DNA of 64,000 nt from Mammaliicoccus sciuri (GCF_025561425.1 NZ_CP094824.1:2790001-2854000); one strand, 5' to 3'; numbered from the stretch's first letter, positions 8,422-64,000 are shown. Program-made: numbers and translations. Notes: generated by a model not told the origin, from the sequence alone.

Positions 8422-9270
8422 TTAATTCTCAACATATTCTTTTAATTTATCGTATATTTTTTCAGCATCTTTATATCCTTGTTTGTATAAAGCATCTAAT
8501 TTTCTAGGGTTTTTCTCGATTCTATCAACAGATAATGAATCAGAAGGTCTGATAACAAACAAATTACCTTTCTCTTCTTCCGCTTCTATCCATTCTAAAG
8601 TCTGATTATAATGTTTATATCTAATTGCCATTAAGTGATTTATTTTAGGATATGCTTTCAATCTAAATACTTTTGAAAATTTACTTTGTTTTTTGCGATA
8701 GCCTTTCGGTCTTGTCAAAATCAAAACATTTTTCTTATAGCCTTCTTCAATTGCTTTATCAATTGGAATAGGATTGACGATACCATCATCTAATAAAGTA
8801 TGACCTTTATATTGAACTGGGTTGGCCATCATTGGTAAAGAACTTGTTGCCTCTAGAGCAGTCAATATAGAACCTTCTGTTTCTTTCTTATTGAAATAAA
8901 CCGCTTCTCCTGTGTCACAGTCTGTCGTTACAACAACAAACTCTTCCTCTGCTTGATCAAACTTTTCAAAGTCAAAAGGTTCCAAGTAAGTTGGTATATG
9001 ATGATACACAAAGTCCATACCAAATATTTCTTTATTTTTTACATAATTTGATAGCGAAATATAGCGCTTATCTTTAATGTATTTAGTTGTGACACGATGA
9101 TTGCGTCTAAATTGTCGAGATATATAACTTGCAGCCATAGATGCGCCGGCTGAAACGCCAATATTATATTTAAAATATAAATCTTTCTTAATGAAGAAAT
9201 CTAGCACACCTGCTGTGTACATACTTCTCATTCCGCCACCTTCTAATATTAATGCTGTGTCTTTTATCAT
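8422..9270 (-). CDS. Patatin-like phospholipase family protein
   Basis: Predicted cytoplasmic serine lipid acyl hydrolase of the bacterial patatin (RssA/YlbK-like) type. The oxyanion motif GGGMRSMY is near the N-terminus, the nucleophile elbow is GVSAGAS, and the DG of the Ser-Asp dyad is in LLDDGIVNPIP. I place the start at 9270 (MIKDTALILEGGG), after AAAGAAG. The upstream extension to 9321 would read through the inverted repeat at 9309-9340. The substrate is unknown. It lies between recR and the rrn promoter. Confidence 0.85.
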   Translation of the reverse strand: MIKDTALILEGGGMRSMYTAGVLDFFIKKDLYFKYNIGVSAGASMAASYISRQFRRNHRVTTKYIKDKRYISLSNYVKNKEIFGMDFVYHHIPTYLEPFDFEKFDQAEEEFVVVTTDCDTGEAVYFNKKETEGSILTALEATSSLPMMANPVQYKGHTLLDDGIVNPIPIDKAIEEGYKKNVLILTRPKGYRKKQSKFSKVFRLKAYPKINHLMAIRYKHYNQTLEWIEAEEEKGNLFVIRPSDSLSVDRIEKNPRKLDALYKQGYKDAEKIYDKLKEYVEN

Positions 9271-9308
9271 AGTTACACTTCTTTCTATATTATTAGTTGA
9301 ATGAAAGC

Positions 9309-9340
9309 GAGGCTGAGACATTCTTCATTGTCCCAGCCTC
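9309..9340. terminator. Staphylococcal-type GAGGCTGRGACA hairpin
   Basis: GAGGCTGAGACA (9309-9320) and TGTCCCAGCCTC (9329-9340) form a 12-bp stem with one G·U-type mismatch. This kind of hairpin recurs between staphylococcal genes. It follows recR on the minus strand and probably ends or stabilises that transcript. The downstream T-run is weak. Confidence 0.6.
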
Positions 9341-9351
9341 AATTATTGTTA

Positions 9352-9951
9352 TTAAATTTCTGTTCTTCCAGTTATAGCTTTCGAAAGTGTTACTTCATCA
9401 GCGTATTCTAAATCCCCACCTACTGGTAGACCATGTGCTAGTCTAGTTGTCTTAATACCAATCGGTTTAACAAGTCTAGATATATACATTGCTGTTGATT
9501 CACCTTCTATATTAGGATTAGTCGCTAATATAATTTCTTCGATTTCATCATTCTTCAATCGTTCTAATAATGAGGGAATATTAATATCTTCAGGTCCAAT
9601 ACCTTCCATTGGAGATATCGCTCCATGTAATACATGGTATAACCCTTTATATTCACGCATTTTTTCCATAGCTATGACATCTTTAGAATCTTGAACAACA
9701 CACACAACTGAACGGTCTCTTTGTTTATCTTGGCATATATGACAAGGCGAAACATCCGTAATGTGTCCGCAAGTTTCACAATAAGTCAGTTCTCTCTTAA
9801 CATCTACAAGAGATTTGGCAAAAAGTACAACGTCGTCTTCCTTCATATCTAATACGTGGAAAGCTAAACGTTGTGCAGTCTTCGGACCTATTCCCGGCAA
9901 TTTCATAAAGCTATCGATGAGTTTAGATATTGGTTCTGGGTAGAACATCAT
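9352..9951 (-). CDS. recR: Recombination mediator RecR
   Basis: A 199-aa RecR with the helix-hairpin-helix [15 protein letters not shown] at about residues 19-33, a C4 zinc finger ([16 protein letters not shown]) at about 57-72 and a Toprim domain with the DINIPSLL segment. It acts with RecF/RecO to load RecA at gapped DNA. Its ATG overlaps the ebfC stop by one base (TAATG), so the two are translationally coupled. Full length. Confidence 0.97.
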
Positions 9952-55700: not shown

Positions 55701-55705
55701 AACTA

Positions 55706-56149
55706 ATGCATAAAAAGAAAATCAATATCGTATCAATACAAATGGTTAAAGAGAAGGTTATGTGGTACCCAGAACGAAAGGTATCATCACCAGAAAATGC
55801 TGCTAAGATTATGCGAGAATTTGTAGGTCCCTCTGACAGAGAAGTATTTGTTCTCCTTTCACTAAACACTAAAAATGAACCAACTCACATCGAAAAAGTA
55901 TCAGTAGGTTCGCTCAATGCTTCCATCATACATCCAAGAGAAGTATTCAAATCAGCTATACTATCAAATGCCGCTAACATCATACTGGGACACAATCATC
56001 CAAGTGGTCATCCTCAACCATCATATGAAGATATCGAAGCTACAAAACGTCTATATGAAGTAGGTAAATTGATTGGAATAGATGTCCTCAATCATATCAT
56101 CTTTACAGATGATTCATTCATTTCACTAAAAGAAAGTGGTCATCTCTAA
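55706..56149 (+). CDS. Stand-alone RadC/JAB-domain protein
   Basis: A 147-aa protein with only the RadC-type JAMM domain. The metal motif is LGHNHPSGHPQPSYED (HxHPSG...D), and the glutamate is in LLSLNTKNEPTHIEKVSVG. Chromosomal RadC has an added helix-hairpin-helix domain; this short form is typical of plasmids, integrative elements and prophages. Its function is unsettled. No ribosome site is obvious, so the true start may be a later Met. It starts at the junction that cuts the FAD gene. Confidence 0.8.
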   Translation: MHKKKINIVSIQMVKEKVMWYPERKVSSPENAAKIMREFVGPSDREVFVLLSLNTKNEPTHIEKVSVGSLNASIIHPREVFKSAILSNAANIILGHNHPSGHPQPSYEDIEATKRLYEVGKLIGIDVLNHIIFTDDSFISLKESGHL

Positions 56150-56182
56150 AGGTTAGACATTATGTGTCTGACCTTTATTTTT
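56147..56182 (+). terminator. Terminator after the RadC-like gene
   Basis: AAAGGTTAGACA and TGTCTGACCTTT pair with one mismatch around a 5-nt loop and are followed by ATTTTT on the plus strand. Confidence 0.82.
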
Positions 56183-56292
56183 CCTACGATTTGTCAACTA
56201 CTACGTAGTAAAAAATATTTAAAATTGGCATCACTAAATAAGCCTTTATTATTTAATAATTTTTTCAATATGTTATGATTTAGATGAATATA

Positions 56293-57504
56293 TTATCCGT
56301 GTGGAGACAAGTGATAATCATATTCTTTATTATTTATTACGAGATAATGAATGGTTTTAAGTAGTTTGTTAATGCAAGCTACTGATGCAGTCTTGTGGCC
56401 TTTGCCATTAGGCTGCTTTTTTAATTTGTAATAATAGTCGATAATATGATTTTTAAATAACCTTTGACCCAACAGAAAATTTTTAATGATTAAGTAAAAT
56501 AATGATCTAGCATGTTTGTTTCCACGTTTGTTTATTTTATCTTTAAAATGCGTTTTACCAGACTGATATCTTTTTATATCAATACCTATATATGCATTCA
56601 ATTGCTTATGAGAATCAAAGGATTTGATATCACCTAATTCGCCAATAATCATTATGGCAGTTAAATCACCAATGCCAGGAATAGATTTAATTATTTTAAA
56701 TTCTTCAAATTCTTCAGCTAACATTAATAATCTTTGTTTTATAGAAGCATGCCGTTTCATTAGGCTTAATAAATCTTCAATCACATAAACTAATTTATCT
56801 GTTAAAAATGAATCTTTAGAAACAGAAGGATAACTGACCATAGAGAACTCTACGAGTTTATTTGCATATTGTGCTTTCTTTTTCTCTGATAGATTTTTTT
56901 CTGTACAACTATTAATTATCTTTTTTAGTTCTTCTATATCATTAGAATCAACAAAGTCCGGATGTGGGAACTTACTAGCTACTTGTAAAGCCAATTTTGA
57001 ATATCTGTCCTTAAATAGGTTTTGTAATTCTGGAAAAGTCATATCTAGTAACTGAATCAATTGGTTTTTTAAGTAATTTTGTTGATTGTTAATTTCTTCA
57101 TAGTATCTTGTCAGCTCTCTAATTTTTACATACTTTTCTTCCAATAAATTTCTAGAAGGTTTTTTGTTTATATTTTTAGCTAAAACAGCAAGTTTATGTG
57201 CATCAGATTTATCTGTTTTCCAGTTTCTTAAAGAATTAGTTAGTAATTTTGCCTCTAGAGGGTTAATTACACAAAACGAAATCTTATTAACGGTACAAAA
57301 TTTCTCCAATACTTTTGAATATATACCAGTAGCTTCAAACAAGAAATATACTCCTGAGAAATTCTTTATATATTTCTTTAGTGAATCAAAACCATTATTA
57401 TCATGGGTAATTTCAAATTCTTTAACAAATTCATTGTTTGAATAATGTGCAATAAAACTCTTTCCTTTTCCAACATCTATTCCAAAATATTCGATAAAAA
57501 CCAC
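56293..57504 (-). CDS. IS110-family transposase
   Basis: A 403-aa DEDD transposase. The N-terminal RuvC-like domain begins FGIDVGKGKSFIAHY, with YFLFEATGIYSKV and NWKTDKSDAHKLAVLA. The C-terminal domain has IPGIGDLTAIMIIGELGDI and AYIGIDIKRYQSGK with the serine-containing region NKRGNKHARSLFYL. IS110 elements lack terminal repeats, so the ends are not defined, and a guiding bridge RNA may lie in the flanking DNA. Start is GTG at 57504. Confidence 0.92.
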   Translation of the reverse strand: MVFIEYFGIDVGKGKSFIAHYSNNEFVKEFEITHDNNGFDSLKKYIKNFSGVYFLFEATGIYSKVLEKFCTVNKISFCVINPLEAKLLTNSLRNWKTDKSDAHKLAVLAKNINKKPSRNLLEEKYVKIRELTRYYEEINNQQNYLKNQLIQLLDMTFPELQNLFKDRYSKLALQVASKFPHPDFVDSNDIEELKKIINSCTEKNLSEKKKAQYANKLVEFSMVSYPSVSKDSFLTDKLVYVIEDLLSLMKRHASIKQRLLMLAEEFEEFKIIKSIPGIGDLTAIMIIGELGDIKSFDSHKQLNAYIGIDIKRYQSGKTHFKDKINKRGNKHARSLFYLIIKNFLLGQRLFKNHIIDYYYKLKKQPNGKGHKTASVACINKLLKTIHYLVINNKEYDYHLSPHG

Positions 57505-57939
57505 TCCTAATCTTCTAATTTAAGAAGTTTTAACTTCACTGAACCTTACTTAGTTCATTTTCCTGTACACGATCTCAGTGGACCCAACATACTAAAATCG
57601 AATTCATAAGGAGAGTGAAGTTCTCCAGTTTTTATTACGGATTCTTTGACCCTAAAATCTATTCGGAGTACTTCTCTCTTCTACTATTTCATATTCTTAA
57701 AATAACTACCAACGGTAAGATAAAGAATATAAAAAAGTAGCGAAGCTCATCTACCGTCGTAGATTACTTCGCTACTAATCTTAGTATGTTTTTATTGACG
57801 ATTTGTCACATCCATATATAAACAAACAGATTTTTCATCATCCCATATATATGTAAAAACTATACAAAATTTTTAGAGAGTGACATGAGGTGTCTAATCA
57901 TTTTTATAAAATATAGATACAGCGATAAGGAGTGGATTG
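57505..57939. other. Gap between IS110 and the WYL operon
   Basis: No gene seen. It contains a hairpin at about 57735-57776 (AAGTAGCGAAG with CTTCGCTACT) that looks like a terminator. The stretch just upstream of the IS110 gene is where a bridge RNA would be expected. The A/T-rich region 57850-57930 should hold the promoter of the WYL operon. Confidence 0.55.
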
Positions 57940-58854
57940 ATGAACAAAGCACAACGTCTTCTAACGATCTATACTCGTCTTCTTAATAATCAAGGAGTTA
58001 ACAAGATGAATCTAGCTGATGAGTTAGAAGTCGATGAAAGTACAATACAACGAGATATAGACGATATTAGAAACTATCTATTCGATAATGAAGAGCACCA
58101 ACAAAGAATGGAAGTTACGTATCAACATAAATCGAATGAGTATCGACTAGTAAGAAAAGAATCCGTACTCGATAGCAGCACCTTCTCTTTACTTATAACG
58201 CATCTACAAGGTCATTCAACAGTCATTACGCAAGATATATACGAACTATTAAAGCAAATCATCTACAAGTTCTATAACCATGACGGAAAGTACTTATTAG
58301 AACAGCTGAAGAAATTCACAGTGATAAATGACGTTCCAACCAGTACGGTCTCTAAACTCCAGGTTGCAATAAAGTACCAAAATAAGATTAGCTTCCTTTA
58401 TGAAGGAGAAAGAATTACTGGTATACCTGTCAATATAACAAGTAATCATAGTCAGTACATGTTGTGGCTAAAGAAAAGAACTTTGAAATTTTCTATAAGA
58501 GATATTAAAGATTTACAGATTATAGGCACAGAACACCTTCCCAACGAAAAAGTCGTACTGAAGATGACAAAAGATGTTTGGCATATTCTTAGGCACCAGT
58601 ATAAAGTCGATACAATAGAAACCTTTTCTGATGATCAAATCACTGTAACATTCGACATGAATTATCCTGAAGTAATGAATGTTTGTATACTCTATAGTCC
58701 TCATATCATGTTAATCTCACCTTCTTATATGTATCAACCCTTAGTCAATTTCATATTGGCAATAAACGCTGTATATATGAACCAACAGATACAAATCAAT
58801 AATGAAAGTAAGGAGATTGACAATGAAGATAAAGAACAAAGAGGAATTAAATAA
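57940..58854 (+). CDS. HTH–WYL domain transcriptional regulator
   Basis: A 304-aa regulator. The N-terminal DeoR-like winged helix contains NKMNLADELEVDESTIQRDIDDIRNYL. The WYL domain spans about residues 130-205 (IKYQNKISFLYEGE, then MLWLKKRTLKFSIRDIKDL), and a C-terminal WCX-like region follows. AAGGAG is 7 nt before the ATG; an in-frame TTG lies 3 nt upstream. WYL regulators often control defence operons by sensing nucleic acids or nucleotides. It heads a run of seven genes and overlaps the next by 32 nt. Confidence 0.86.
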   Translation: MNKAQRLLTIYTRLLNNQGVNKMNLADELEVDESTIQRDIDDIRNYLFDNEEHQQRMEVTYQHKSNEYRLVRKESVLDSSTFSLLITHLQGHSTVITQDIYELLKQIIYKFYNHDGKYLLEQLKKFTVINDVPTSTVSKLQVAIKYQNKISFLYEGERITGIPVNITSNHSQYMLWLKKRTLKFSIRDIKDLQIIGTEHLPNEKVVLKMTKDVWHILRHQYKVDTIETFSDDQITVTFDMNYPEVMNVCILYSPHIMLISPSYMYQPLVNFILAINAVYMNQQIQINNESKEIDNEDKEQRGIK

Positions 58855-59296
58855 AGCAAAGAAAGCCGCTATGAAGATTGTTAAACAACGTTCTACAGCA
58901 AGTGGAGCAATTGCGGCTATTCCTGTTCCAGGAGTAGATTTAGCTGCAGATGTCGGTTTAATCATGGAAGTAGTCAATAAGGTAAATAGAAAGTTCGGCT
59001 TATCACACGAAGAAATCGAGGAACTAGATGCCGATGAGAAACAAAAAGTACTTGTGATTGTCACTTCAATCGGTAATCAATTTGTAGGTAAAGTACTTAC
59101 AAAGGAACTTGTAACTCGTACTCTAAAAAAGATTGGGATTAAGAAAGTCACACAGAAACAAGTAGCAAAATATATCCCTTTTGCAGGAGCTGCTATTTCT
59201 GGTGGTATCAGTTATGCCGCTATGTATTCGTTAGGCAAAAATCATGTAGAAGAATGTTACGAGATATGTCTCCAATTGCTAGAAGAAAAACAATAA
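58823..59296 (+). CDS. DUF697-like small membrane-associated protein
   Basis: A 157-aa protein starting at ATG 58823, after AAGGAG (a start at 58802 is less likely). A hydrophobic hairpin-like segment GAIAAIPVPGVDLAADVGLI covers about residues 19-40, and a second (YIPFAGAAISGGISYAAMYS) about 112-135. The pattern recalls the DUF697/YcjF domain of bacterial dynamin- or IRG-like GTPases, but no GTPase domain is present. Its start lies within the WYL gene, so the two are coupled. Confidence 0.65.
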   Translation: MKIKNKEELNKAKKAAMKIVKQRSTASGAIAAIPVPGVDLAADVGLIMEVVNKVNRKFGLSHEEIEELDADEKQKVLVIVTSIGNQFVGKVLTKELVTRTLKKIGIKKVTQKQVAKYIPFAGAAISGGISYAAMYSLGKNHVEECYEICLQLLEEKQ

Positions 59297-59319
59297 CTAA
59301 TGGAGGATGCTAAATAAAT

Positions 59320-59511
59320 ATGATTAATATCATAAAAACAATAGCAAGAATCCCATTTTTAAAACAAATAAAAGATAAACCTCTTAGAGATGACGTGATT
59401 ATTATCGGAAATGATTATAAAAATTTATCAGACCAAAAACTTATGGATATGTATAAATATCATAAAAACAATGAAAATTTTCGAGAATATATCCGTATAA
59501 AAAAACAATAG
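59320..59511 (+). CDS. Hypothetical protein, 63 aa
   Basis: A charged, lysine- and asparagine-rich small protein beginning MINIIKTIARIPFLKQIKD with no membrane span. GGAGG is 13 nt upstream, a long spacing. I do not recognise it. It is retained because it is co-directional and closely packed in the WYL operon, 23 nt after the preceding stop. Confidence 0.5.
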   Translation: MINIIKTIARIPFLKQIKDKPLRDDVIIIGNDYKNLSDQKLMDMYKYHKNNENFREYIRIKKQ

Positions 59512-59557
59512 AAGATAGAGGATACTCAATTAATGAAGAATAATGGAGGAAAATATT

Positions 59558-59842
59558 ATGAGTGAACTGTTAAATAAAGCTGGCTCAATAGCTGGAAAAG
59601 TCGCACGTGGTGTAGGAATGGCAGTTGTAGGTTTAGGCGTAGGTATATTTCAGGAAGGTAAGAATGCAGTAAATAAGCGTCTAAAAGAGATTGAAAAATT
59701 TGAAGGAGAACTTAAACACAAGACTGACTCATCATTACAAAGTGAATATAGAAGTGCTCAAGGTGCTAAAAAAGTTGCGATTAGAAACTTATTAAAAGGG
59801 CGAGGTTACAAATACGACGAAGACACAAAACGTTGGCACTAA
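59558..59842 (+). CDS. Hypothetical small protein with glycine-rich hydrophobic N-terminus
   Basis: A 94-aa protein starting at ATG 59558, 8 nt after GGAGG. Residues about 7-31 (SIAGKVARGVGMAVVGLGVG) form an amphipathic or membrane-active glycine-rich segment. The second half is charged and ends with LLKGRGYKYDEDTKRWH. No known function. The pattern of a hydrophobic head and a soluble tail recurs in the operon. Confidence 0.65.
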   Translation: MSELLNKAGSIAGKVARGVGMAVVGLGVGIFQEGKNAVNKRLKEIEKFEGELKHKTDSSLQSEYRSAQGAKKVAIRNLLKGRGYKYDEDTKRWH

Positions 59843-59864
59843 AAGAAAGGGATATTAAAACATT

Positions 59865-60308
59865 ATGAAGAAACGAATACTAATCATCATCGGTATAATC
59901 ATCGCATTATTTTTAGCTTTTAAAATCGTGTTACCTAAGACTATTGCAATTAATCAATATGAACCTGTAAATATTCAAAATTTGCAGGTAAAAATTCAGA
60001 ATACAGGTAGTTATTACAATGTTGTTCAAGTCGAATTAGATATCTTACCTAATAAAAGTTCCGGTAAATTTAATCCTTATAAGGACTTTGCGATGGTAGC
60101 AGACGGAAAGAACTTAAAGTTACATGCACTTAACGATAAGAAGGCAATAGCCAAGAAATACAAAGTGACAGGCTATGCTGACAGTCGTTGGATAGTGGAA
60201 TATGAATACAATGAACGACCAACCGATTTAAAATTTCAAATTATCGACAGAAAGCTATTTGGAAATAAAGTGTATGAATACAACATGGAAACACATTACT
60301 TAAGGTAA
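59865..60308 (+). CDS. Hypothetical membrane-anchored protein, 147 aa
   Basis: One N-terminal membrane segment (ILIIIGIIIALFLAFKIVL) without a lipobox is followed by a domain predicted to be beta-rich and extracytoplasmic (VKIQNTGSYYNVVQVELDIL, YADSRWIVEYEYNERPTDL). GAAAGGGA lies upstream of the ATG. It may expose a sensing or scaffolding domain outside the membrane. Not recognised. Confidence 0.65.
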   Translation: MKKRILIIIGIIIALFLAFKIVLPKTIAINQYEPVNIQNLQVKIQNTGSYYNVVQVELDILPNKSSGKFNPYKDFAMVADGKNLKLHALNDKKAIAKKYKVTGYADSRWIVEYEYNERPTDLKFQIIDRKLFGNKVYEYNMETHYLR

Positions 60309-60322
60309 CAGGAGGAAACACA

Positions 60323-60664
60323 ATGGCAGATTATAAGAAGATTGCTAAGGATAAAATTCGTGAAGCTAAATTAGAAGAAAAAGCAAAAACATATTATGCA
60401 AAAGGAAAACAGTTATCACAGGATAAAGACTTGAAGAAGAATTCTGCTGAATATGGCAAAGGATTCATTAACGGACTAAAAAATATGGAAACTATCCCGG
60501 TGCTAGCATTAACATTCGTTATGATGTTATTACTATGGATACCGATGATGTACGGATCCATGACGATTTCTCTACTTACAGGTCAAGACGGTATGAGTAA
60601 TAAAGAAATGCGTGAACTAGACGGCAGATTACAAGAGCGCTATAACGATATGATAGGAGAATAA
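60323..60664 (+). CDS. Hypothetical membrane protein, 113 aa
   Basis: A charged N-terminal half likely helical (IREAKLEEKAKTYYAKGKQL), one or two membrane segments at about 55-82 (IPVLALTFVMMLLLWIPMMYG), and a charged C-terminal tail. AGGAGG precedes the ATG. It ends 2 nt before the next start. No family recognised. Confidence 0.65.
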   Translation: MADYKKIAKDKIREAKLEEKAKTYYAKGKQLSQDKDLKKNSAEYGKGFINGLKNMETIPVLALTFVMMLLLWIPMMYGSMTISLLTGQDGMSNKEMRELDGRLQERYNDMIGE

Positions 60665-60666
60665 CA

Positions 60667-60858
60667 ATGACAGCATCTAAAATTATACAGTTACTATTAT
60701 TACAATTCCTTTGCGTATTCATCGTAATACAAATAGGATTGGTGATGGTTGGATTTTCACTCATAACCATCCTCTTCTGGTCATACTTACTGTTTGTGAT
60801 TATCTATGTTGGATTTTTAGCACCTCGCTGGAAGAAAAAAGACAAGGTTGTTAAATAA
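60667..60858 (+). CDS. Hypothetical two-span membrane peptide, 63 aa
   Basis: Nearly all hydrophobic, with two predicted spans (LLLLQFLCVFIVIQIGLVMV and LITILFWSYLLFVIIYVGFL) and a basic tail (RWKKKDKVVK). It follows the previous gene by 2 nt with AGGAG inside that gene. Last gene before a strong terminator. Could be a pore-forming or anchoring part of the unit. Confidence 0.65.
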   Translation: MTASKIIQLLLLQFLCVFIVIQIGLVMVGFSLITILFWSYLLFVIIYVGFLAPRWKKKDKVVK

Positions 60859-60860
60859 TA

Positions 60861-60902
60861 AATACGCTCATCTCTAATTGTAGAGATGAGCGTATTTTTT
60901 TC
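60861..60902 (+). terminator. Strong terminator of the WYL operon
   Basis: AATACGCTCATCTCTA (60861-60876) pairs perfectly over 16 bp with 60881-60896 around a 4-nt loop, followed by a long T-run. It closes the unit that began at 57940. Confidence 0.94.
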
Positions 60903-61017
60903 TTTTTTTAGTTTTTAACTATATGTAAATATTCTAAATTTACATGGATAATTTTACACAATACGTATATGTCATTATAAAATAATAATAACAAAATCAA
61001 TCATCAGGAGGCACTTT

Positions 61018-61404
61018 ATGATACTTGCCGATAGAATTAAAGACCTTATCTATATCGATTATAAAATCAACCAAGACCTAAGAGACTATGGCAGTTGTTA
61101 CATTGGAAAACAAGATATCAACGAGTTGCATAAAGCGTTAAAAGTCCTTAATGATAGCAATAGATTTCGTTTCATAGTGGGCTATAACGCTGACAATCCA
61201 GAAAATATTACCTACGAACGCTTCGATGAGAAGAAGACTGCTCGTGTGTCGCCTGAAGCGGTTATTAAGCAGTTACAAGATACCATCGATACTATTCAAC
61301 ATTTAGTCGATGAGGATAGACTTGCAATGATTATTAAAGATGGTAACTCCATATTAGTACAGTCAATTACATTAGATGAGTTCACAATAGACGTCATAAA
61401 ATAA
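61018..61404 (+). CDS. Hypothetical protein, 128 aa
   Basis: A soluble, acidic protein beginning MILADRIKDLIYIDYKINQD, preceded by CAGGAGG. A helical segment lies at about 80-98 (EAVIKQLQDTIDTIQHLVDE). It is outside the WYL operon terminator and has its own promoter region (60903-61017). Not recognised. It may be another accessory gene of the same acquired segment. Confidence 0.6.
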   Translation: MILADRIKDLIYIDYKINQDLRDYGSCYIGKQDINELHKALKVLNDSNRFRFIVGYNADNPENITYERFDEKKTARVSPEAVIKQLQDTIDTIQHLVDEDRLAMIIKDGNSILVQSITLDEFTIDVIK

Positions 61405-62796: not shown

Positions 62797-63471
62797 CTAT
62801 TTGTTGTCATTAGATGGCTCCTTTAAATTATAAATATAACAAAAATCTACAAAAAGATCTGTTAATAATACATCATCTTTAATTATATTCTCTAGATATT
62901 CTCCATGACATTTACGAATTTTCAATCCACTCCCACATAAACACTCTAAATGACCTCTATATTTCTCTTTAAATAATAACAGCGCAAATTTTTTAAATAA
63001 TTCTTCATCAACATTCCATTTTTCAAGATAATATTCTAACATTCCCACTCTGCCATGTGACCTCTTACCAAATGGGTATTGTTTATATCGTCCAAACCAT
63101 TCTAAGGAAAAAAAGAACGAATGAAAAAACTTATTTATAAAATTCAAAACGGTGGGTTTTAATCTTAAAAACGATCTGACCTCCGTATAAGCAGCTAAAC
63201 AAATGCTACCATCTGGATTTACATGTTCCATATCAGATGGAATATCTTCAATAAATAATTTAATATCTGATTGAGGGAAATTTTTATAGATATGTATCAC
63301 GATGTTTTTGGAGTTTGAATACCTAGTGCTAGCGTAAGATACATCATAATTATATTGGCCTTTTAAAATAAATTTTTCTTCATCTTCACATAGTATTAAA
63401 TTAGGTTGGTGAATCATTAATTCATCAATTTGTTGATGTAAATTTGTGATAATATTTATTCTCCCTTCCAT
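62797..63471 (-). CDS. E2-like protein of a short type II CBASS operon
   Basis: A 224-aa protein with a UBC-like E2 fold signature: EHVNPDGSICLAAYTE places the predicted catalytic cysteine at residue 91 after His83. A C-terminal Cys/His cluster (CLCGSGLKIRKCHG, residues 177-190) resembles a SEC-C zinc motif. In single-E2 CBASS the E2 conjugates the C-terminus of the cognate CD-NTase. Its ATG lies inside the 3' end of the CD-NTase gene (16-nt overlap), so the two are coupled. Assignment is from motif plus partner. Confidence 0.78.
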   Translation of the reverse strand: MEGRINIITNLHQQIDELMIHQPNLILCEDEEKFILKGQYNYDVSYASTRYSNSKNIVIHIYKNFPQSDIKLFIEDIPSDMEHVNPDGSICLAAYTEVRSFLRLKPTVLNFINKFFHSFFFSLEWFGRYKQYPFGKRSHGRVGMLEYYLEKWNVDEELFKKFALLLFKEKYRGHLECLCGSGLKIRKCHGEYLENIIKDDVLLTDLFVDFCYIYNLKEPSNDNK

Positions 63472-64000
63472 GGTTTAATTTCACTAACATCATTTTCATT
63501 AGTATCTGAACTTACAGGGAGATGTAGCTCATTACGAACTTCTTGTTCAAATTTTCTAGTTTCAATATTTAATAAATATTTTTCAATATGATTTAACCAA
63601 TCAATCATTGATTCATGGTGTTTGCGAGTCCAACCATAATTTATCACTTCAGAACTATCAATCGGATTTATTATATTAACCCCATGCATAATTGGGATTG
63701 CACCTTTCTTATATCCATTAATAAAGATATTAATTATCTCATCCACACTCAAGTTATCTTCATGTTCAACAGCACTAGCAACTAATGATGTTAATAAAAA
63801 CGTAGAAGGTTTATAACGTTGATTAGTTTTACGCTCATAATAAACATCACGAATTCTTTTTAATAGCTGAACTGATCTCTGTAGGCTAGAACGATAAAGG
63901 TAAGTTGGTATTTCCTCTGCTGAAGCATACAAACCTCTCAACTCATATAGTAATCTACTTCTCTGTTGGATTATCTGTGACTCACTCATATGTCTATTAC
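63456..64000 (-). CDS. C-terminal part of a CBASS CD-NTase (cGAS-like)
   Basis: The frame is open to the right edge and ends at 63456. It contains RSSLQRSVQLLKRIRDVYYE and KPSTFLLTSLVASAVEHE, the helical region typical of CD-NTases after the nucleotidyltransferase core; the core itself lies outside the window. The ATG at 63989 is probably internal. The protein ends in PWKGE, with a glycine before the last residue, of interest because E2 partners process and conjugate the CD-NTase C-terminus. The effector would be upstream, beyond the edge. Confidence 0.75.
   Translation of the reverse strand, partial: NRHMSESQIIQQRSRLLYELRGLYASAEEIPTYLYRSSLQRSVQLLKRIRDVYYERKTNQRYKPSTFLLTSLVASAVEHEDNLSVDEIINIFINGYKKGAIPIMHGVNIINPIDSSEVINYGWTRKHHESMIDWLNHIEKYLLNIETRKFEQEVRNELHLPVSSDTNENDVSEIKPWKGE

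Follow-up and report, generated by a model that had tools for sequence, protein, structure and literature searches.

Sequence comparison shows that a gene for a WYL-domain regulator in the window (the whole stretch of 64,000 nucleotides of Mammaliicoccus sciuri DNA that was analyzed) heads a group of mostly membrane-associated proteins that is borne on SCC, is under selection, and can be exchanged. Methicillin resistance is carried between staphylococci by SCC elements, and to our knowledge, most of the uncharacterized genes in them lack an assigned role. This fixed slot for a regulator, placed just after the replication and recombination genes and followed by interchangeable small membrane proteins, constitutes a unit that can be recognized, searched for, and tested. 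As far as the searched literature shows, a WYL-headed SCC module is undescribed: among papers outside subscription journals, titles and abstracts on SCCmec and WYL contained none. An eLife article about the genes for SCC replication mentions DUF950, DUF960, and DUF1643 but neither RadC nor a WYL module (PMC7581432).

Inspection of positions 57940-60902 bore out the gene count, order, strand, spacing, and coordinates given in a preliminary description of this DNA. On the plus strand, gene A (57940-58854; 304 aa), which encodes a transcriptional regulator with HTH_11 and divergent WYL domains, is overlapped by B (58823-59296; 157 aa), encoding a small protein that probably belongs to the DUF697/EcsC superfamily. 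These are followed by C (59320-59511; 63 aa) and D (59558-59842; 94 aa), both of a family designated C/D/X, in which C is a truncated member and D is placed by alignment; E (59865-60308; 147 aa), which is weakly DUF4352-like with an N-terminal membrane anchor; F (60323-60664; 113 aa), with one hydrophobic segment and a conserved motif; and G (60667-60858; 63 aa), which encodes a very hydrophobic membrane protein. An intrinsic terminator on the plus strand closes the operon (60860-60897); its existence was upheld, and its stem comprises 17 pairs and is followed by T-rich sequence. The statement that at least four products contain hydrophobic segments held clearly for E, F, and G only, B being marginal and D having no segment at the threshold. 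Downstream, H (61018-61404, plus strand; 128 aa) forms a separate transcription unit and is a conserved neighbor of G in SCC and on mecB plasmids.

Values of dN/dS between the window and two related loci were 0.02-0.44 for RadC, A, B, D, E, F, G, and H, which shows that these genes have been kept by purifying selection. The ratio was not measurable for C, which was too similar to its one close relative (0 synonymous changes and 1 nonsynonymous change over 59 codons). The operon genes are accordingly regarded as real, beyond what chance would give, because their order is kept in two other genomes and because of these dN/dS values. Clear matches to a known transporter or phage module, which the preliminary description had named as grounds for refutation, did not appear in profile searches, and for C to G, there was no significant match to transporter, holin, or phage families in Pfam, NCBIfam, or PHROGs. 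A known transporter, a phage module, a toxin-antitoxin pair, and a validated defense system were all rejected as identities for lack of profile matches. No phage DNA matched the module, and no structured RNA was detected in the 55-64-kb region.

Protein A matched the Pfam HTH_11 profile at 1.6e-6 and the PADLOC WYL model at 3e-11, and its residues 1-198 scored 95% against YafY-type WYL proteins in an hhalign profile comparison. The original assignment as a WYL regulator is upheld by the last two results, with the qualification that the domain is divergent and gave no match to Pfam WYL. The predicted architecture of A conforms to the HTH plus WYL (Sm/SH3-like) make-up of WYL-domain transcription regulators. 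The WYL motif is degenerate, and ligand binding may therefore be altered. In common with BrxR, PafBC, and SiwR, WYL regulators associated with defense or DNA damage, A has an N-terminal HTH and a WYL-like domain and adjoins its probable targets; it differs from them in that its WYL domain lies below Pfam detection and in that the adjoining genes encode small membrane proteins rather than BREX or repair enzymes. A sequence search for a solved structure related to A found none, and an AlphaFold2 model built from a two-row alignment had a pLDDT of 46, too low for interpretation.

The plus-strand region upstream of the operon (57789-57939) has been kept from SCC and contains a TTTGTCAC box at ∼57802 together with a conserved TGACA...TGTCTAA. 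The box is common to most close relatives of the window's WYL gene, whereas ∼0.01 exact copies would be expected per upstream region. We infer that TTTGTCAC is a candidate regulatory box and that A may bind its own upstream DNA. In a tree of WYL proteins, that of the window grouped with both Macrococcus SCC copies described below and with two truncated relatives. A single SCC-only WYL clade was ruled out, as the tree requires three or more label changes to account for the SCC-linked WYL genes. At two loci (L099 8401-9063 and L101 7187-8487), a truncated gene related to the WYL gene of the window was observed beside metal-transporter-like genes; the second locus is also beside rlmH. In each of three related elements from different species (L105, L108, and L129), the WYL gene is split over two frames.

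Two Macrococcus genomes repeat the order RadC-A-B-C-D-E-F-G-H, namely L035 (its genus being our inference from a genus code shared with the named genome) and L043 (identical to L036; Macrococcus sp. TMW 2.2395). Both copies read rlmH, H-G-F-E-D-C-B-WYL-RadC, and then DUF1643, DUF960, SaUGI, ccrB, ccrA, and cch; in L035, the identities of CcrA, CcrB, Cch1, SAUGI, DUF960, DUF1643, and RlmH were confirmed by profile. Judged by the ccr recombinases and rlmH, the segment in these two genomes is cargo inside an SCC element. The window's B protein is 98-100% identical to the Macrococcus copies, and F and G are 96-98% identical. Homology to L035 starts with the RadC start codon, runs through all of H (55705-61391, 89-96% identity), and is broken only by an IS110 element into segments at 55705-56199 and 57789-61391. 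The gene set is conserved beyond this locus, contrary to the other ground for refutation named in the preliminary description, which had missed the SCC origin and the exchange of cargo. The original proposal of an acquired multicomponent membrane system is supported by SCC cargo that is near-identical in another genus and lies in a slot behind ccr-SaUGI-DUF960-DUF1643-RadC.

The RadC-like JAB-domain protein (55706-56149, plus strand; 147 aa; Pfam RadC 6e-41) is 99% identical to the RadC encoded directly before the L035 WYL gene and is the ancestral neighbor of the WYL gene in SCC. The IS110-family transposase gene (56293-57504, minus strand; Pfam IS110 domains) lies outside the module and represents an insertion between RadC and the WYL gene, since the homology to L035 is continuous across it. 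RadC, previously described as stand-alone, is therefore part of the same conserved segment, split by IS110; the reported CBASS operon (cyclase and E2) was indeed found next door. The sequence ACGATTTGTCA occurs on both flanks of IS110 (∼56180-56200 and 57797-57808), at the site of the TTTGTCAC box.

In Macrococcus and Staphylococcus, the module lies directly behind the SCC/SCCmec block formed by cch, ccrAB or ccrC, SaUGI/DUF950, DUF960, and DUF1643 (PMC7581432). The window copy corresponds to a displaced piece of the same segment; ccr, SaUGI, and DUF genes are all missing from this copy, and it lies away from rlmH. Its designation as a displaced SCC fragment follows from three observations: rlmH lies ∼118 kb from the operon, the window genome contains no SaUGI gene, and the only ccr genes near the copy are a distant, partly broken pair ∼30 kb away. 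No SCC att core was found in the window. The dS between the window and L035 was 0.04 for B and 1.06 for A, and such sharp gene-to-gene variation in divergence is as expected for a recombining mosaic.

The 63 aa first given for C are not its natural length, the protein having been cut from 74 aa by a 1-bp deletion relative to L035. The deletion removes a conserved C-terminal RGY motif held in common with D, and because of this truncation, the window module may be functional only in part. Protein D has a glycine-rich N terminus and a C-terminal "RGYxYDxxTxRW" domain; this domain is common to C, D, and X and is found almost only in SCC. In the L043 copy from Macrococcus, an additional C/D/X-family gene was seen between B and C (9198-9446).

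Alone, B matched DUF697 at 0.007, which is under the curated cut-off. Within its family, 15 of the 21 members matched DUF697 (E up to 0.01, best 4e-8), and four matched EcsC, so that B probably belongs to the DUF697/EcsC superfamily. A relative of B, the core paralogue, was present in all 108 Staphylococcaceae genomes searched (108/108). B also matched the C-terminal part of PDC-S30 at 1.9e-7 in PADLOC, and in the L093 SCC, a 260-aa EcsC-like protein encoded after E-F-G matched PDC-S30 at 1.9e-99. B therefore shares its C-terminal part with PDC-S30/EcsC-DUF697 proteins, of which L093 carries a complete example behind E-F-G, but differs in being only 157 aa, in being without the N-terminal part, and in having a ubiquitous chromosomal paralogue. 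PDC entries, PDC-S30 included, are unvalidated PADLOC defense candidates (PMC12813430). A search by sequence for a solved structure gave nothing significant for B. A fixed WYL-B pair across bacteria was ruled out; relatives of B occur on Paenibacillus, Chimaeribacter, and Acinetobacter plasmids without the WYL-E-F-G operon. A second, diverged WYL-B pair (32% and 69%) was seen on a Macrococcus chromosome next to a contig end (L037 7718-9083). At two further loci from other genomes of the family (L041 3182-7016 and L042 6652-9417), WYL-like regulators stand beside a PDC-S30-related EcsC protein and a DUF4870 protein, with a 69-aa or similar protein also in both neighborhoods; at L041, a GTPase that appears dynamin-like by eye is nearby.

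With a hydrophobic segment at residues 1-30, E consists of an N-terminal membrane anchor and a probably extracellular domain. Its homologue in L058 matched DUF4352 at 8.7e-4, under the cut-off; a structure search by sequence gave nothing significant for E, and an AlphaFold2 model from a two-row alignment had a pLDDT of 38.5, likewise too low to be of use. Protein F has a lysine-rich N terminus and one hydrophobic stretch, followed by a conserved WxPMMYGSMT...TGQDGMSNKE motif, and G is almost wholly hydrophobic. Among 157 genomes from the order, eight carried F, and G adjoined it in all of them (8/8). Phage origin was ruled out: viral contigs yielded one weak partial WYL relative only and no relatives of E, F, or G, and no relative of the L058 WYL protein was found in phage records.

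The distribution of the regulator slot was surveyed in SCC loci found via SaUGI, a set that includes related genomes; the slot behind DUF1643 was visible in 45. RadC and WYL were both present in 9, RadC only in 1, WYL only in 1, and neither in 34. Thus, WYL occupies the same slot in 10 of the 45 loci, once without RadC, and heads swappable sets of small membrane proteins. Counts for the RadC-WYL association are inflated by related elements, and after a by-eye collapse, the association was weaker (p 0.02). An SCC with ccrC (L058) reads SaUGI-DUF960-DUF1643-RadC-WYL-E-F-G and is without B, C, and D. In the L093 SCC, WYL is followed by part of E, F, and G and then by the 260-aa EcsC-like protein. 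At four other loci, WYL is followed by X, a C/D-like protein, and a 162-aa protein, to which two probably secreted low-complexity proteins are added in three of the four. E(part)-F-G also adjoins a mecC-blaZ-mecR1-mecI locus, and F-G with part of H occurs on two Macrococcus mecB plasmids. Spread of the whole module on staphylococcal plasmids was ruled out, the only matches being these two F-G-H remnants and one of 183 nt.

As the best explanation, held at a little under even confidence, we propose that the operon is an SCC accessory module in which WYL-switched membrane proteins guard cells or the SCC against phages or rival elements. The WYL protein would bind operators in its own upstream region, and a nucleic-acid signal such as ssDNA or degradation products, arising when a phage or the SCC replicates or when DNA is damaged, would alter this binding and so switch on the downstream genes. 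The products would then assemble at the membrane, where F and G would form an obligate pair and E would expose a domain on the outside; B, C, and D would also be membrane-associated. The outcome would be a membrane effect that shields the cell population or the SCC from phages or competing elements. The defense or stress role first suggested is, on this evidence, a possible one. Defense is ranked first because of the PDC-S30 relative and because CBASS and restriction-modification genes lie nearby; apart from such island neighbors, the PDC-S30 relative encoded after E-F-G in L093 is the sole link to defense. BrxR-family WYL regulators are located near defense systems in 48% of cases (PMC9122601), and a WYL activator in DNA-damage regulation binds ssDNA (PMC10693628). 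When run on window proteins, PADLOC returned the WYL model, partial matches to the unvalidated PDC-S29, PDC-S30, and PDC-S02, and weak matches to HamB and CARF/Cas; the seven operon proteins matched none of its validated defense systems. Counting against defense, relatives of both A and B are also found among ordinary chromosomal genes at a distance from defense loci, and the DUF4870 protein and secreted low-complexity cargo behind the same regulators resemble envelope biology. If the module is a defense or competition system, it would help to explain SCC persistence.

Several of the same observations could be accommodated by a role in the SCC life cycle, which we consider unlikely but the strongest of the alternatives. 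Here, the WYL protein would sense ssDNA of the replicating excised SCC and switch on membrane proteins that aid persistence or exit; conceivable means would be anchoring SCC DNA at the membrane, transfer, or a change in the envelope. The module follows immediately on RadC and the genes for replication and recombination, RadC and WYL co-occur, replication of the excised SCC with protection of the new DNA by SaUGI has been proposed (PMC7581432), and ssDNA is bound by the WYL domains of a DNA-damage regulator (PMC10693628). However, the 34 of 45 SCC loci that have neither RadC nor WYL argue that the module is no general SCC requirement, and the cargo varies from element to element. Service in SCC replication or transfer would bear on SCC spread.

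A somewhat less probable reading takes the genes as envelope or stress cargo, that is, small membrane proteins that benefit the host under a stress-sensing WYL regulator, outside both defense and the SCC life cycle. The weak DUF4352 likeness of E, the DUF4870 membrane protein and secreted low-complexity proteins found as alternative cargo, and the ordinary chromosomal core paralogues of A and B are consistent with such a role, but extensive transfer, a mosaic make-up, and the swapping of cargo are seen more typically in conflict genes, and the C/D/X domain occurs almost exclusively in SCC. That the operon of this strain is a broken piece of SCC without any present function is improbable: C is frameshifted, IS110 lies upstream, rlmH is 118 kb distant, the SCC backbone is absent, and E-F-G remnants in other genomes are likewise partial, but the remaining six genes are intact and subject to purifying selection, and both the terminator and the region upstream have been kept.

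The protective module favored above may be one instance of a wider arrangement. We put forward with considerable doubt, and less firmly than the protective role itself, an SCC-wide modular system of WYL-switched membrane effectors, in which replication intermediates of SCC or of phages would be the trigger and the element or the host would be protected. Were this so, it would be a general conflict system of methicillin-resistance cassettes, with swappable effectors (E-F-G, B/PDC-S30, and C/D/X domain proteins) in one regulator slot.

The neighboring defense genes occupy window positions 62797-64000 and continue into L039 (1-4337); the CBASS cyclase and E2 genes are followed by a cytosine methyltransferase gene. 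Two further ORFs match one half each of a single type II restriction enzyme model, and this nuclease gene may have been split by a frameshift.
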